The position numbers and the translations under genes were made by a program. A stretch of 64,000 nt of DNA from NCBI RefSeq assembly GCF_000520975.1, contig NZ_JACB01000026.1, positions 1 through 64,000 of the forward strand. Direction: 5' to 3'. The DNA is from Aquimarina megaterium XH134. Lineage in GTDB: Bacteria; Bacteroidota; Bacteroidia; Flavobacteriales; Flavobacteriaceae. Under the pieces are notes generated by a model. That model was not told the origin of the DNA. It saw nothing but the letters and a program-made list of their open reading frames with translations, and searched no databases. Position 1 is the stretch's first letter. Every line of letters begins with the position of its first letter. This document shows positions 6,545-57,982 of the stretch, in pieces.

Positions 6545-7441
6545 TTATAAATTCCAGAAATCAACCTGGTCTTGTTCAATTTCCTGAATATCAACAAGGT
6601 TAATATCCATGCGATACATAATGAGTTCGGTAAATCGATTTGTGGCAAATTCGCGATTGGCTCCATTAGAATATAGAATACCCGCTCCATTTGTTGCAGT
6701 ACAACGACCCAAAGTATAGTTTCCGGTTCTAAGAATAGTACCAGATCGTCGAATTGTCTGTACAACATTAGCGCGAATAAAAGAGAACTGTTGCCATTGA
6801 TTATTCGTATTAGAAGCCCATCGAACAGGATCACTACAACAAATCCCAGAATCAAAATAAACTCTGTTATTTGTCCAGTTTACATGAATAGACCATCGAT
6901 TTCTATTAACACCAGGTTGCCTGGTACCGAATGAAAACTGATTATCAGAAGTAGAGTATAAAACTGTAAAAACAGAACCGTTAACTCCTGCATTAGTAAG
7001 AATTTGAATACTTGTATTGATATCTAACCGATCATTGCTACCATCTCCAAAAAAATAAGGTCTGGCGGGATCGGTTATAAACCGTGGTTGAAATGCATTG
7101 GTATTCTGAATAGCATTTCTACCTAAACCACTTTGATCATACCATATGACTACAAATACATTTGCAGCACCTCTCCAGGTATCTATTGCTGCCACATCCA
7201 CAATATCATTATCGTCCCACCCAAAATCTTGTTGGGCGTTATCGCTATCTCTTCTTAGGCGTATAAGAGGTCCATTATAATCAGATTCTAGCACCCTTAA
7301 GGAAAAAGCAAAGCTAATATTAGTAAGTTTTTCATCGAGGATATGAGACGGCTTCATCGTAGGGAAATTATTGTATTGACCAATTTGACAATAACCAAGG
7401 CTAGAAAAAAACAGACCTATGTAAAGTAATAATCTTGCCAT
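6545..7441 (-). CDS. secreted arabinofuranosidase-B/LamG-like domain protein
   Basis: 298 residues with a signal peptide ending near GYCQ. The body has the VIWYDQSGLGRNA, QPRFITDP and FFGDGSNDRLD blocks typical of the catalytic-domain-like fold of alpha-L-arabinofuranosidase B and related concanavalin-A-like proteins, a group that is common as standalone secreted proteins in Bacteroidetes. Glycan binding or cleavage is therefore possible but unproven. It sits four bases downstream of another small secreted protein gene, so the two form an operon with coupled expression. It probably acts outside the cell or on the surface. Confidence 0.65.
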   Translation of the reverse strand: MARLLLYIGLFFSSLGYCQIGQYNNFPTMKPSHILDEKLTNISFAFSLRVLESDYNGPLIRLRRDSDNAQQDFGWDDNDIVDVAAIDTWRGAANVFVVIWYDQSGLGRNAIQNTNAFQPRFITDPARPYFFGDGSNDRLDINTSIQILTNAGVNGSVFTVLYSTSDNQFSFGTRQPGVNRNRWSIHVNWTNNRVYFDSGICCSDPVRWASNTNNQWQQFSFIRANVVQTIRRSGTILRTGNYTLGRCTATNGAGILYSNGANREFATNRFTELIMYRMDINLVDIQEIEQDQVDFWNL

Positions 7442-7445
7442 GCTA

Positions 7446-7958
7446 TTAATTTCTTTTTAAATCCCCGGTGATATGAAATGTATTGGTTGCTGTGCATACG
7501 ATACCGGCTCCTGCATCTAATCCTGCTGTTTTAAATCGTAATAATCTGTTTTTTATAGTTACCCCTGCGGCTCCTGTGACGGTTACTTTTCCTGCTCCCA
7601 GTTGATAGATACTAACATTATACCCTATAGAAAGTCCCGCAGGAACTGTTAATGTAACATCTGTTGTGCTATTAAAGGTTAGTATATTATGATTGTCAGT
7701 ATCTACAAGAGTATAATTTCCGGTTTTAGCAAATACAGATGGGGATTCGAGTAATTCTTTCCATTCTGTTCCATTAAATTGAAATACCTTTTTTTTAACT
7801 GTATCGAAGATTAAAGATCCTTCTTGTATTGTAGTTGTACTAATACCATTTATATCGGTTGTAGTAGCTCCTGGCAATCCCAGTAATGCATTAGCATCGA
7901 TTTGAGCAATAGTGCTTGTGTAATATAAAAACACTACTAAAATTAGTAATTTTTTCAT
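7446..7958 (-). CDS. small secreted beta-rich protein of unknown function
   Basis: 170 residues with an N-terminal signal peptide (cleavage near TIAQ). The remainder is Thr/Gly/Val rich, with a GSLIFDTVKKKVFQFNGTEWKEL block of a type found in flavobacterial surface and cell-wall-like proteins, then a VTVTGAAGVTIKN repeat-like strand seen in phage tail-fibre and beta-helix proteins. It is upstream of and tightly linked to the arabinofuranosidase-like gene. I infer a secreted binding or structural partner; nothing in it indicates an enzyme. Confidence 0.6.
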   Translation of the reverse strand: MKKLLILVVFLYYTSTIAQIDANALLGLPGATTTDINGISTTTIQEGSLIFDTVKKKVFQFNGTEWKELLESPSVFAKTGNYTLVDTDNHNILTFNSTTDVTLTVPAGLSIGYNVSIYQLGAGKVTVTGAAGVTIKNRLLRFKTAGLDAGAGIVCTATNTFHITGDLKRN

Positions 7959-8076
7959 GTTAGTAGGTAGTTGGTTAAAATAAAAGCTTATTAAAGTTAT
8001 ATAACTCTAATAAGCCCTTTCTTTTGATACATCAAAATAATAAAAATTATATTATTTGACTTATTGGGTAGGAGTA

Positions 8077-8709
8077 TTATTTTCCAAAAAGACCACCAAG
8101 CAGCCCTCCAAGACCTCCTTTTTTCTTTCCTCCACTACTTAATAGCATTCCGGCAACATCGTCAAGAATACTTCCATCACCATCTGCATCTAAGAAAGAT
8201 TCTATCAATGATTGTTGCTTAGTACCACCGCCAGACATACTACCTAGTAGACCTGATAATCCATTAGCATCGTTTACATTATTCTGTTTAGCTTGTTTTC
8301 CTAATACTCCTAAAAGAATTGGAGCGGCAACTTTTAGTATTTGAGCCACAGAACCAGCATCGATTCCTGATTTTTGACTTAAAGCATTTTCTACTGCAGG
8401 TTGTTTATTTCCAAGAATATGACCTAGAATACCAGCTCCATCATTAGTAACACTTTGATCAACACCACCGTCAAATAAACCTCCTAAATTATCTAAAATC
8501 CCACCTGTATGCTTACCAGTTAATGCTCCTAATAGTCCCGAAGCTCCTTCAGGTGTAGATGCATTTCGTTGCATTGCACCCATAAGTACAGGCATAGCCA
8601 TACTTAATAGGTCTCCGGTTTTATCTTGGGATTGGCCCGTTTGTGAGCTCACACCGTTGATAATTTGCTTGCCCATTGGGCTATTTAATAGATCTAAAAT
8701 TCCTGACAT
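8077..8709 (-). CDS. DUF937 domain-containing protein
   Basis: 210 residues, rich in Gly, Leu and Ser, with paired helical repeats (LLSMAMPVLMGAM and ILKVAAPILLGVLGKQ) and a Gly-rich C-terminus (GGKKKGGLGGLLGGLFGK). A DADGDGSILDD segment near residue 175 looks like a single calcium-binding or dockerin-like loop. This matches the DUF937/YidB-like family, whose function is unclear. No signal peptide is seen. It stands alone, flanked by terminators of its neighbours. Confidence 0.75.
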   Translation of the reverse strand: MSGILDLLNSPMGKQIINGVSSQTGQSQDKTGDLLSMAMPVLMGAMQRNASTPEGASGLLGALTGKHTGGILDNLGGLFDGGVDQSVTNDGAGILGHILGNKQPAVENALSQKSGIDAGSVAQILKVAAPILLGVLGKQAKQNNVNDANGLSGLLGSMSGGGTKQQSLIESFLDADGDGSILDDVAGMLLSSGGKKKGGLGGLLGGLFGK

Positions 8710-54005: not shown

Positions 54006-55148
54006 TTATGAGTTGTTTTTTCTGTATTGAGTAGGGGTGGTGCCAGCGTATTTTTTAAAAGAAGTATTGAAAGAAGATTTAGAATTAAAACCTACTTCGT
54101 ACAAGATTTCGAGAACAGTTACCTGTTTTTTGGCAGGATCTTTTAAAATATCCATCGCATGTTGTATACGATATTCATTTACAAAATCAAAAAAATGCTG
54201 ATCCAGATGATGGTTGATCAGAATTGATACTTCTCTAACAGGCAATTGTAGATCATCTGCCAAGTTTTGTATTGTAAGTGTGGGATTCAGATAAGGCTTT
54301 TGCTCGATCATATGTGTTCTTAATTGCTGTATTTGATCTTGAACCTCTTTATCATCAGGAAGATTGATCACGGTCTCGTTTTTTGTGATCATATTTTCTA
54401 CCGGGAGTAATTTAGAATCAATTCCTCTAAAAATTCCCGGATCATACAATGCTTTTAAAATTAACCAACATATAAAGCATAGAACCAGAAACACAACAAT
54501 AATTCTGGCAATATTTATGGTTTGGAAATCATCATTGAAAAACTTAAATATCGTTTTAGAAGTACTAACAACAAAGATAAAGCTAGAAATAACGTTTAAC
54601 TGAAACAACCATTTATGTTTTGCTGTGGTTGCATTAGAGTAGTTTTCCAGCATTACCTTCTTAGATTTTTTTAGAATGACAAAAATGGCAATAATATATG
54701 CTATAACCTGAATATGACCAATAATCAAAGTGGAAATGGATTCTGGAGTCAGCAAATAATTATTCATAAAAGAAAGCTTGGCTTCTTGGTTTGCCAAATA
54801 AAATCTGGGAATTAATATCAAGGTATTTATCACAAAAGGAAGACCATGTAGCAAATGTTTTGGTTTCAGCTTAAAATCTATATAGATAACCGATAAGACA
54901 AAAAGATAAAGTACCGGACTAGAAAAAAATGGAAGATCCATACGTATCATTTCTAGCGTTAGAGGCATATCTATAAACCGATGATAGAAAAAAGAGCTGA
55001 TATCGATGGCTACGAGTATAAGAAAAGCAGCAATAAGCCGATTACTGGTTTTGTTTTTTGTTTTTACAGTTAGTAAGAAGATGGCAAAAAGCGACGATAT
55101 AAAAACAATCATCAGGCTTATAATGCTAAGAATAGCGTAGTTATCCAT
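54006..55148 (-). CDS. membrane-anchored AraC family transcriptional regulator
   Basis: 380 residues. Seven or so membrane helices (about 6-27, 37-54, 75-95, 101-120, 137-158, 184-204, 215-235) lead into a C-terminal AraC-type DNA-binding domain (about 285-378) with VLEILYEVGFNSKSSFNTSF as the second HTH and TPTQYRKN at the end. This two-part form is common in flavobacteria. It lies 149 bases upstream of and in the same direction as the TonB-type receptor gene, which is a likely target. Confidence 0.87.
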   Translation of the reverse strand: MDNYAILSIISLMIVFISSLFAIFLLTVKTKNKTSNRLIAAFLILVAIDISSFFYHRFIDMPLTLEMIRMDLPFFSSPVLYLFVLSVIYIDFKLKPKHLLHGLPFVINTLILIPRFYLANQEAKLSFMNNYLLTPESISTLIIGHIQVIAYIIAIFVILKKSKKVMLENYSNATTAKHKWLFQLNVISSFIFVVSTSKTIFKFFNDDFQTINIARIIVVFLVLCFICWLILKALYDPGIFRGIDSKLLPVENMITKNETVINLPDDKEVQDQIQQLRTHMIEQKPYLNPTLTIQNLADDLQLPVREVSILINHHLDQHFFDFVNEYRIQHAMDILKDPAKKQVTVLEILYEVGFNSKSSFNTSFKKYAGTTPTQYRKNNS

Positions 55149-55235: not shown

Positions 55236-55796
55236 TTAAGATATCTCATGTAGAGCTCTATTAAGACTGCGTAGTGTTATTCCTAAATAATCAGCTAGAT
55301 CTTGTTTAGAAAAAGCCATGGCTTCATTAGAAGAAAATTTCATTAATTTTTTAAGATTATAAGCAATAGGATATGATTGTTGTTGAGAGGCTCTAATTGC
55401 AGTATCTCTTACTTTATTGGCTAATGCTTTTAAAAGTAGTAAATTAAGTTTTGGGTGATTTTCTAATAGGGTATAGAAATCTTTAGCATCAATCTCATAT
55501 CCAGTAACTTCTGTTATTGCTTCTGCATTACAAAAACTAATAATATCATTAAAGACTTCTAATTCTCCAAGGATTTCACCAGTGCTAAAAAACTCCTGAA
55601 TAAAATCTCTGCCATTATCCTCGTTTACATAACATTTTACTACTCCATTTTTTATAATGAATATAGAGGGTACATATTTTCCCTGAATAATAATCTTTTC
55701 TTTTGAAATAAATCTCTTCTCTTTTACCATAGTACTTACAGAAGACTCTGATAGTTGTGAAAAGAAATCTAATAATTCTTGATTAATCCTAATCAT
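55236..55796 (-). CDS. Crp/Fnr family transcriptional regulator
   Basis: 186 residues with a cyclic-nucleotide-binding beta-barrel (about 20-125; IIIQGKYVPSIFIIKNGVVKCY and FFSTGEILGELEVF) followed by a winged HTH (about 150-186; SKQDLADYLGITLRSLNRAL). The Arg-Ser segment that binds cAMP in CRP is not conserved, as is usual in this Bacteroidetes group. It is divergent from the glycosyltransferase operon but separated by over 300 bases. Confidence 0.88.
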   Translation of the reverse strand: MIRINQELLDFFSQLSESSVSTMVKEKRFISKEKIIIQGKYVPSIFIIKNGVVKCYVNEDNGRDFIQEFFSTGEILGELEVFNDIISFCNAEAITEVTGYEIDAKDFYTLLENHPKLNLLLLKALANKVRDTAIRASQQQSYPIAYNLKKLMKFSSNEAMAFSKQDLADYLGITLRSLNRALHEIS

Positions 55797-56129: not shown

Positions 56130-57032
56130 ATGCTCGAAAAGATATACATACAAATACCAGCATACCGGGATAAAGAACTGTCTAACACAGTGATTGACCT
56201 TAATAAAATGGCTAAACATCCCGAGAGACTAAGAATCGTAATTGCATGGCAACATGGAAATAAAGAACAACTTAAAAAAGAAGTTTTTGACTACGGTAAT
56301 GTCGAAATTATTGATATTCACTACAAAGACAGTAAAGGTTGTAACTGGGCACGTAATTTACTTCAGAAACAATGGAAAAATGAAGCCTATACCTTATACC
56401 TTGATTCTCATCATAGGTTTGTGAAAAACTGGGACGAGGAAACTATAAAAATGTTTAAAGCCTTAAAAGATGAAGGTATAAAAAAACCAATTATCACAGC
56501 ATATCTTCCTTCTTATGATCCCGAAAATGAACCCGATGGAAGAATGAAATACCCGCTTAAAATCTATCCTTTAGAGCGAGACAAAGGACTCCTTACGAAG
56601 TTAACAAGTTATCCTATTCCTCATTGGAAAAAAATTAAGAAACCACTTCTTGCACAATTTATCTCATTACACTTTTTGTTTGCCGATGGTTTCTTTAATA
56701 ATGAAATTCATTTCGATCCAGAGATCTACTTTTTTGGAGATGAGGTATTAACCAGTCTTAGGGCATATACGTATGGATATGATTTGTTTCACCCTCATAT
56801 TATTTTGGGATGGCATTTATATGATAGAGAAACAAGAACACCACATTGGGATGATCATACCTCATGGTATAAACAGGAGGAGATATCTTATCATAAAATG
56901 AAAATAATCTATACAACAAACATGACTTCTAATACTATACTTGGCCCTGATAGGAAAGTGATTGAGTATGAAAAATATATTGATCTTAAGTTGTATGATA
57001 ATGGTATAGAAAATGAAGCAATCTGTAGCTGA
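56130..57032 (+). CDS. GlcNAc-transferase family glycosyltransferase (GT60-like)
   Basis: 300 residues from the ATG at 56130 (MLEKIYIQIPAYRDKEL); a 24-codon extension starting at 56058 is less likely. No signal peptide or membrane helix. The fold is GT-A type: IPAYRDKEL at 9-17, GCNWARNLLQ at 70-79 and YLDSHHRF at 90-97, with DSH (92-94) in the metal-DxD position, as in the Pfam GlcNAc family that includes Dictyostelium Skp1 GlcNAc-transferase and trypanosomal mucin enzymes (CAZy GT60). GDEVLTSLRAYTYGYDLFHP is a further conserved block. Its 3' end overlaps the next gene by 20 bases. Donor is inferred to be UDP-GlcNAc. Confidence 0.8.
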   Translation: MLEKIYIQIPAYRDKELSNTVIDLNKMAKHPERLRIVIAWQHGNKEQLKKEVFDYGNVEIIDIHYKDSKGCNWARNLLQKQWKNEAYTLYLDSHHRFVKNWDEETIKMFKALKDEGIKKPIITAYLPSYDPENEPDGRMKYPLKIYPLERDKGLLTKLTSYPIPHWKKIKKPLLAQFISLHFLFADGFFNNEIHFDPEIYFFGDEVLTSLRAYTYGYDLFHPHIILGWHLYDRETRTPHWDDHTSWYKQEEISYHKMKIIYTTNMTSNTILGPDRKVIEYEKYIDLKLYDNGIENEAICS

Positions 57033-57609
57033 GATATTAGAAAAAGATAAAATCATATGTATTGATGGTTTTGTACCTGCATCGATGTGTGCCAAAATAT
57101 TAGAAGAACTCGAATATTCTTTCTGGAAACGCAGTACGGTAATAGATCCAAGGATACATAAGAGTCATCTTAGCAACACCCGGATTAGTAAAAGTGCAGA
57201 TCAGGAATTGTTTACAGATACACTTATAGGAGTGATAAAGAAAATAGAAGAAGATATTACATCATTATTTGATGTAGAACCGAATAGGCTAGAGCAATGG
57301 CAAGCCACAAAATATGCCAAACATGGTAAGTTTGATTATCACTATGATAGTGGAGCCTGGGGAGAGCATTATGCAGGAGAACGAAAGAAAACCTATTTGT
57401 TATACCTCAATACACCTAAAAAAGGAGGTGCGACACATTTCAAAAATTTAGATATCAAAGTCAAACCAAAACAAGGAAGATTATTGGTCTGGGATAATTT
57501 ACTGCCAGACGGAAATTGTAATTATAATATGTTGCATGCAGGCTTACCCATTATTAATGGTAAAAAAACAACATTGGTTACCTGGGAAAGACAAAAAGCA
57601 ATACGATAA
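57013..57609 (+). CDS. prolyl 4-hydroxylase, Fe(II)/2-oxoglutarate dioxygenase
   Basis: 198 residues. The iron ligands are His110-x-Asp112 (FDYHYDSG) and His175 (NMLHAGLP); Lys185 (GKKTTL) is placed to bind 2-oxoglutarate. TYLLYLNTPKKGGATHF and VKPKQGRLLVWDN are the strand blocks of the P4H core, so an active P4H is likely. It hydroxylates Pro in peptide chains, typically in X-Pro-Gly or similar. Cytoplasmic; no signal. It overlaps the GT gene and is followed 22 bases on by a proline-rich protein gene, its probable substrate. Confidence 0.88.
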   Translation: MKQSVAEILEKDKIICIDGFVPASMCAKILEELEYSFWKRSTVIDPRIHKSHLSNTRISKSADQELFTDTLIGVIKKIEEDITSLFDVEPNRLEQWQATKYAKHGKFDYHYDSGAWGEHYAGERKKTYLLYLNTPKKGGATHFKNLDIKVKPKQGRLLVWDNLLPDGNCNYNMLHAGLPIINGKKTTLVTWERQKAIR

Positions 57610-57631
57610 AAACTCTAAAATTGAAACGCAT

Positions 57632-57982
57632 ATGACAAAAAAAATCAAAAACTTAAAAGCCGAAGGTTCTAAAATATCTCATATACGAGACAAGAACCTT
57701 ATTGTTTCTGTAAAGAACCAGGAGAAAATTATAAAGGATGTAATAAAAAAGCACGGACCCATTATTGATCTTGAAAAAGACCCACAATTACTAATTGATA
57801 TCCTGGTTAAATTTAAACCTCAGTTTTATGGACCTGATGGAGGGTTACCACCGGGAGGAGTACCAGATCCACCGCCACCTCCAGGTCCAGATTCTTACAG
57901 AGCAATTGAAAATGTTCATCTTATGAAAGAAATTTTAAAACTAAATAAGAAAATGAGTAGTATAAAAAAACGACTCAAGTAA
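57632..57982 (+). CDS. proline-rich small protein, candidate substrate of the P4H and GT
   Basis: 116 residues from the ATG at 57632; a frame from 57536 overlaps the P4H gene and gives a non-natural start. Residues 1-60 are basic and amphipathic with alternating strands and helices (NLIVSVKNQEKIIKDVIKK). Residues 63-87 form a proline-rich segment with P73-P74-G75, five Pro at 80-84, G85 and P86: PPG motifs as in collagen-like P4H substrates. The last 25 residues are a basic helix (ILKLNKKMSSIKKRLK). No signal peptide or family match. I infer that it receives hydroxyproline and sugar. Confidence 0.72.
   Translation: MTKKIKNLKAEGSKISHIRDKNLIVSVKNQEKIIKDVIKKHGPIIDLEKDPQLLIDILVKFKPQFYGPDGGLPPGGVPDPPPPPGPDSYRAIENVHLMKEILKLNKKMSSIKKRLK

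Follow-up and report, generated by a model that had tools for sequence, protein, structure and literature searches.

Does a short stretch of bacterial DNA encode the whole of a pathway that adds a sugar to hydroxyproline, including the protein that is modified? The window analysed here is a stretch of 64,000 nucleotides from Aquimarina megaterium XH134 (contig NZ_JACB01000026.1, positions 1 to 64,000), in which a three-gene cassette is located at positions 56130-57982. A first-pass annotation had read these genes as a glycosyltransferase (GT), a prolyl 4-hydroxylase (P4H) and their proline-rich target. The three open reading frames are exactly as described there, with an overlap of 20 bases between GT and oxygenase and a gap of 22 bases from the oxygenase stop to the start of the small protein:

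56130..57032, + strand: GT60-type (PF11397) polypeptide glycosyltransferase, 300 aa, gene 1
57013..57609, + strand: prolyl-4-hydroxylase-like Fe(II)/2-oxoglutarate (2OG) oxygenase, 198 aa, gene 2
57632..57982, + strand: small partner protein, candidate substrate, 116 aa, gene 3

Conservation and distribution of the three genes

Comparison of five Aquimarina genomes (10 pairs) gave mean dN/dS values of 0.05 for the GT, 0.15 for the oxygenase and 0.10 for the small protein; all three genes are under purifying selection. The order GT-oxygenase-small protein was found in 10 genomes from three lineages and two phyla (five Aquimarina, three Spirosoma-family and two cyanobacterial genomes). Since dN/dS is low in Aquimarina and the gene order recurs in 10 genomes, the cassette is more than a chance arrangement.

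A scan of genome contigs with the GT alignment yielded 251 relatives, the best 80 of which were examined; in seven of these 80, oxygenase and small protein are encoded directly downstream of the GT (four Aquimarina, two Spirosoma, one cyanobacterium), and the window's own genome is the fifth Aquimarina. Whole-genome searches with a profile of the small protein (E up to 0.01) gave a single match per positive genome, in 5/52 Aquimarina, 3/222 Spirosoma-family and 2/36 cyanobacterial-family genomes, adding two full cassettes, L120 (Spirosoma family) and L124 (cyanobacterial family). The earlier annotation had suggested listing genomes with the same three genes: the small protein lies beside both enzymes in all 10 profile-positive genomes. 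The observation is thus stronger than that annotation could know, because gene 3 is kept with both enzymes across two phyla, while its interpretation is supported in part. When 14 genomes were searched for the small protein, the seven with the cassette matched and the seven whose related GT lacks a cassette did not (0/7 at E up to 0.1). A further match in genome G733 (E=0.09, with stops) was treated as noise, and one in another host-family genome (L005, E=6e-4), to a 259-aa Pro-rich protein, was judged compositional; the gene for the latter adjoins an apparent transposase gene.

When neighbouring ORFs of at least 60 aa were clustered by blastp (E up to 1e-5) over stretches of 8 to 16 kb, the cassette genes alone were shared between the three lineages, and no fourth gene, be it for a transporter, a peptidase or a further sugar-adding enzyme, is common to the lineages in the stretches compared. 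The small protein and its two enzymes could also represent a secreted RiPP-like peptide with tailoring enzymes, and one genome of the 10, L120, has a metallopeptidase gene (PF05572, 5482-6504, same strand) 173 bases after the cassette. This gene is not shared with the other lineages, no exporter or peptidase is common to the lineages in those stretches, the small protein matches no leader family over cut-off in Pfam or NCBIfam, and its C-terminal helix after the linker is conserved; we regard a RiPP as extremely unlikely.

In a maximum likelihood tree of 50 GTs (near-copies L027 and L029 left out, L084 absent, drawn root the midpoint only), the eight cassette GTs form one side of a branch with support 98/93. 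The GT of Rhizobium lusitanum (L033) adjoins this group. At that locus a 91-aa ORF (7870-8145) overlaps the GT end, and part of an IS240-type transposase comes after it; the ORF has no Pfam match, and its faint similarity of 6.8 bits to the beginning of the oxygenase of the cassette is a weak hint that it may be a remnant.

A single-sequence GT search of 299 host-family genomes returned the window's own GT only, and PF11397 was detected in 11 of 395 genomes of the host phylum (strongly in the window's own, in 10 others as short matches of 19.6-22.6 bits). Of 365 genomes sampled from the phylum, only that of the window matched the oxygenase profile (E up to 1e-20). Viral contigs contained no relatives by GT sequence, small protein, small-protein alignment A2 or oxygenase profile A3; a phage collection gave three GT records. 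Plasmids gave no match to the small protein and 18 records for the oxygenase, all below 60% identity. In G697, an Aquimarina without the cassette, the CRP-type, AraC-type and downstream serine-hydrolase-like genes are still present and the cassette together with the three genes after it is unmatched in the stretch read; this is thus a variable site. The regulator genes of the window, CRP/FNR-type (55236-55796) and AraC-type (54006-55148), are divergent from the cassette. Both types lie beside it in the five Aquimarina and not beside the other cassettes; since the CRP/FNR-type neighbour is not one of the genes shared outside Aquimarina, we rejected it as a sensor partner.

The two enzymes

The window GT matches PF11397 with E=8.2e-60 (203.6 bits, Pfam cut-off 21), which places it in the GT60-type family proposed earlier; PF11397 also detects the GTs at L030 and L124. 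Its predicted fold (pLDDT 93.5) is of the GT-A type close to GT27, the nearest structures being polypeptide GalNAc-transferases with 12-15% identity in the top 29 of the structure matches listed. A search of PDB sequences with the GT profile gave no match and no GT60-labelled structure is among the 50 fold matches listed, so kinship of fold is stated for GT27 only. A single-sequence PDB search gave a few immune receptors and designed repeat proteins whose scores were summed over many weak stretches; all were discarded. The metal/donor motif is:

56403..56411, + strand: DSH motif, residues 92-94, D and H invariant

DxH replaces DxD in GT27 and GT60 (PMC7185993), and D92 and H94 are unchanged in 50/50 aligned GTs, window GT included, so DSH is the family norm. 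The motif noted earlier in place of DxD is therefore present, but it is no oddity, and we rejected it as a sign of unusual chemistry. From the family, the sugar donor is probably UDP-GlcNAc. GT60 membership had also been taken to point to hydroxyproline as acceptor; this does not follow, since a GT60 enzyme of Trypanosoma cruzi is described as glycosylating Thr (PMC9472816).

The wider family was surveyed at 90 GT loci, consisting of the best 80 of the 251 relatives and 10 others (phage hit H10 left out), with flanks of varying length, some short contigs and some loci sharing a genome or species. An oxygenase is encoded near the GT in 8/90; no such oxygenase was detected in 82/90 at profile E up to 0.05, a threshold at which distant oxygenases could be missed and with an edge fragment in L044 (0.016) set aside. 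Because of these 82 loci, hydroxyproline is an unlikely acceptor for the GT family as a whole. Burkholderia dolosa (L084) has a GT gene of this family (7001-8350) that begins 39 bases after an oxygenase gene of PF13640 (6104-6961) on the same strand, the reverse of the cassette order. The oxygenase scores 58 bits to the cassette profile; because it is so distant, this is presumably an independent pairing. No small partner protein was recognised at this locus.

Other neighbourhoods recur. At 21 of the 90 loci (among them L016, L018, L019, L036, L039, L041 and L043; PF00419 and PF22003 tested in L036 only), GT60-type genes lie within 4.5 kb of a gene belonging to one fimbrial-protein cluster, and a TssF-type gene, part of a type VI secretion cluster, is present at 14 of these 21 and at 16/90 overall; the fimbrial adhesin may be the acceptor of the neighbouring enzyme. 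At L023, L024, L035 and L040, the GT60-type gene is near a gene that is annotated as carbamoyl transferase in jumbo phage XacN1 and has relatives at the other three places, phage RAS14 and two bacterial loci. On an Azospirillum plasmid (L020) it adjoins DUF4255 and phage-tail-sheath genes in a contractile-injection-like cluster.

The oxygenase matches PF13640 (E=2.7e-11), as do those of L120 and L124. The prolyl 4-hydroxylase motif consists of an H-x-D...H iron site and a 2OG-binding Lys, the latter presumably K185 here:

57340..57348, + strand: iron ligands H110-x-D112, invariant in 8/8 rows
57535..57537, + strand: distal iron ligand H175, invariant in 8/8 rows
57565-57567, + strand: K185, invariant in 8/8 rows

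The core reported earlier is thus intact, H110, D112, H175 and K185 being unchanged in every row of the alignment, window included. Profile A3, an alignment of eight homologues, was compared to PDB sequences at E up to 1 and gave 10 matches, each named or known as a prolyl hydroxylase. The top matches are 2jig (5.9e-17), 5c5t (1.3e-16) and 3itq (1.7e-16); with 3gze, 2jij, 5hv0 and 5iax they span 5.9e-17 to 1.8e-16, and human P4HA2 (7zsc) at 1e-12 completes the first eight of the 10. Transmembrane P4H (6tp5) scores 6.3e-6, and Dictyostelium PhyA (6t8m) is last with 0.0022. We take 3itq and 5hv0 to be the Bacillus enzyme. Three of the others are assigned in the literature: 3GZE is CrP4H, 5C5T is vCPH and 6T8M is Dictyostelium PhyA (PMC7864055). 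By these sequence scores the oxygenase appears to resemble algal, viral, Bacillus and collagen P4Hs more than the amoeba Skp1 hydroxylase, to which it is only distantly similar. The earlier annotation had compared the two enzymes to the Skp1 pathway of Dictyostelium; by score the hydroxylase is nearer to the collagen/plant/viral class than to the Skp1/PHD type (2jig 5.9e-17 vs 6t8m 0.0022).

The small protein as candidate substrate

No family of Pfam (over cut-off), NCBIfam or PHROGs matches the small protein of the window, whose best PADLOC score is E=0.02; the small proteins of L120 and L124 likewise have no Pfam family over cut-off. Matches below cut-off (LTI65, E1-E2 and, for L120, Zw10_N) were set aside. 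Its model, of low confidence (pLDDT 60, pTM 0.26), has helices at 13-41, 51-61 and 90-115; because the model is poor, the Foldseek search (nine matches, none with E below 1) is uninformative. Between the helical parts lies a linker rich in Gly and Pro:

57827..57898, + strand: Gly/Pro linker YGPDGGLPPGGVPDPPPPPGPDSY, residues 66-89, mostly at pLDDT below 50
57878..57889, + strand: codons 83-86, with the invariant linker prolines P83 (57878-57880) and P86 (57887-57889)

In alignment A2, D69-G70-G71, G76, P83, G85, P86 and S88 of the linker are invariant in 8/8 rows, the flanking helical parts also carry conserved residues, and two members outside A2 agree by eye with its invariant positions. 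PPG, PPPPP and GP, on which the first-pass annotation had relied, are all present, but PPPPP is not the conserved feature. We rejected it as the conserved target, the linkers having 3 to 10 prolines (Aquimarina 10, 10, 10, 10 and 9, Spirosoma family 4, 3 and 7, cyanobacterial 4 and 4) with only P83 and P86 invariant; by sequence, these two would be the best candidate modification sites. X-Pro-Gly, the collagen-type P4H motif, occurs in 10/10 small proteins, yet at no single aligned position. No run of Gly-X-Y triplets as in collagen was seen by eye in any of the 10.

Averaged over the 10 Aquimarina pairs, residues 1-28 have a dN of 0.047, residues 29-64 of 0.015, residues 65-90 of 0.079 and residues 91-116 of 0.010, with dS of 0.200, 0.439, 0.451 and 0.277; of these four parts the linker is highest in dN and the N-terminal tail in dN/dS. 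This pattern is compatible with a modification region that is flexible and tolerates change, set between constrained parts, but also with a plain linker. The lower dN of the two helical parts would also suit a small protein that regulates or adapts both enzymes, their true substrate being another protein of the cell, and Skp1-type pathways do modify a protein encoded elsewhere. The cassette spans two phyla without another shared gene in the stretches compared, and a Gly/Pro linker would be an unusual choice for an adaptor, which makes this reading quite improbable.

The invariant residues bear on two further possibilities. The oxygenase could hydroxylate a linker proline while the GT acts in parallel on Ser or Thr, for example S88, in the manner of mucin GalNAc-transferases and the T. 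cruzi GT60: this residue is invariant, the conserved G-P is followed by Ser, Thr or Asp, the nearest folds of the GT are Ser/Thr enzymes, and the T. cruzi enzyme makes GlcNAc-alpha-Thr (PMC9472816). Ser and Thr are scarce in the linkers, however, and parallel action leaves the tie of the cassette GT group to an oxygenase unexplained, so that we consider it unlikely. Alternatively, the oxygenase could hydroxylate a residue other than proline, such as D69, with the GT acting there or elsewhere; D69-G70-G71 is conserved as well as any linker proline, and 2OG oxygenases are versatile. The PDB matches of the oxygenase profile are prolyl hydroxylases, and a non-proline target seems to us very unlikely.

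There is in our judgement an even chance that the cassette is a self-contained, horizontally spread, cytoplasmic system which glycosylates hydroxyproline on one dedicated small protein. The oxygenase would hydroxylate one or more prolines of the flexible linker, the best candidates being P83 and P86 or a Pro of the X-Pro-Gly present in every member; the GT60-type enzyme would then add a sugar, probably GlcNAc from UDP-GlcNAc, onto the hydroxyproline, and the helical ends could serve enzyme docking and/or oligomerisation. Sequential action is favoured by the conserved linkage, the grouping of the cassette GTs in the tree, the proximity of the GT fold to enzymes acting on polypeptides, the prolyl hydroxylase matches, the X-Pro-Gly in all small proteins and the second oxygenase-GT pairing in B. 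dolosa; in Toxoplasma, Gnt1 activity is described as depending on the hydroxylase PhyA (PMC6939170). Against it stand the fall in linker prolines from 10 to 3, the high dN of the linker, an X-Pro-Gly that is unaligned and to be expected in any Gly/Pro-rich stretch, the many GT loci without an oxygenase, the use of Thr by GT60 and a donor deduced from family only. Rather doubtful is the further-reaching idea of a complete prokaryotic hydroxyproline O-glycosylation switch, in which O2- and 2-oxoglutarate-dependent hydroxylation is followed by GlcNAc addition on a single dedicated protein and the three-gene unit has passed between phyla; if true, the Skp1 oxygen-sensing modification would have a bacterial analogue in this switch, or even its origin.

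Relation to known systems

Sugars on hydroxyproline are known from plants and algae. They also occur in protists (PMC6939170). In the open-access literature searched, we found no account of bacterial genes that pair a GT60 enzyme with a hydroxylase, most subscription papers lying outside this scope, so that absence is no proof; the main text of a 2015 review of bacterial protein hydroxylation does not contain 'glycosyl' (PMC4295552). As the cassette fits a hydroxylase, a transferase and a putative acceptor into 1.85 kb, it would offer a minimal system for reconstituting hydroxyproline glycosylation, a way to carry out this modification enzymatically in E. coli and a means of testing the origin of Skp1-type modification.

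Three known groups share parts of it. The GT27 polypeptide GalNAc-transferases resemble the GT in fold at the low identity given above, whereas the cassette GT is assigned to PF11397. The oxygenase core is shared with the solved P4Hs 2jig/3gze (Chlamydomonas), 5c5t (viral), 3itq/5hv0 and human P4HA2; unlike these, the cassette oxygenase is encoded with a glycosyltransferase, and its partner has no Gly-X-Y triplet run. GT60-type genes by fimbrial adhesins in type VI secretion clusters belong to the same GT family, but there the partner is fimbrial/MrkD-like and no hydroxylase is detected by profile.

A further comparison is with the PhyA-Gnt1 pathway of Skp1 in Dictyostelium and Toxoplasma, in which a proline is hydroxylated and the resulting Hyp then receives GlcNAc from a GT60 enzyme. 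Both combine a prolyl-hydroxylase-like oxygenase with a GT60-type enzyme, and the cassette, too, is apparently cytoplasmic, as no signal peptide was seen by eye in the GT or its partners. It differs in being one operon-like set that includes a small unrelated protein in place of a Skp1-like partner (without Pfam match over cut-off in the window, L120 and L124), in a hydroxylase nearer by sequence score to algal, viral and collagen P4Hs than to PhyA, and in having no further sugar-adding gene shared between lineages. By analogy, we infer that the action of the cassette corresponds to the two opening steps of the Skp1 pathway, to which it does not itself belong.
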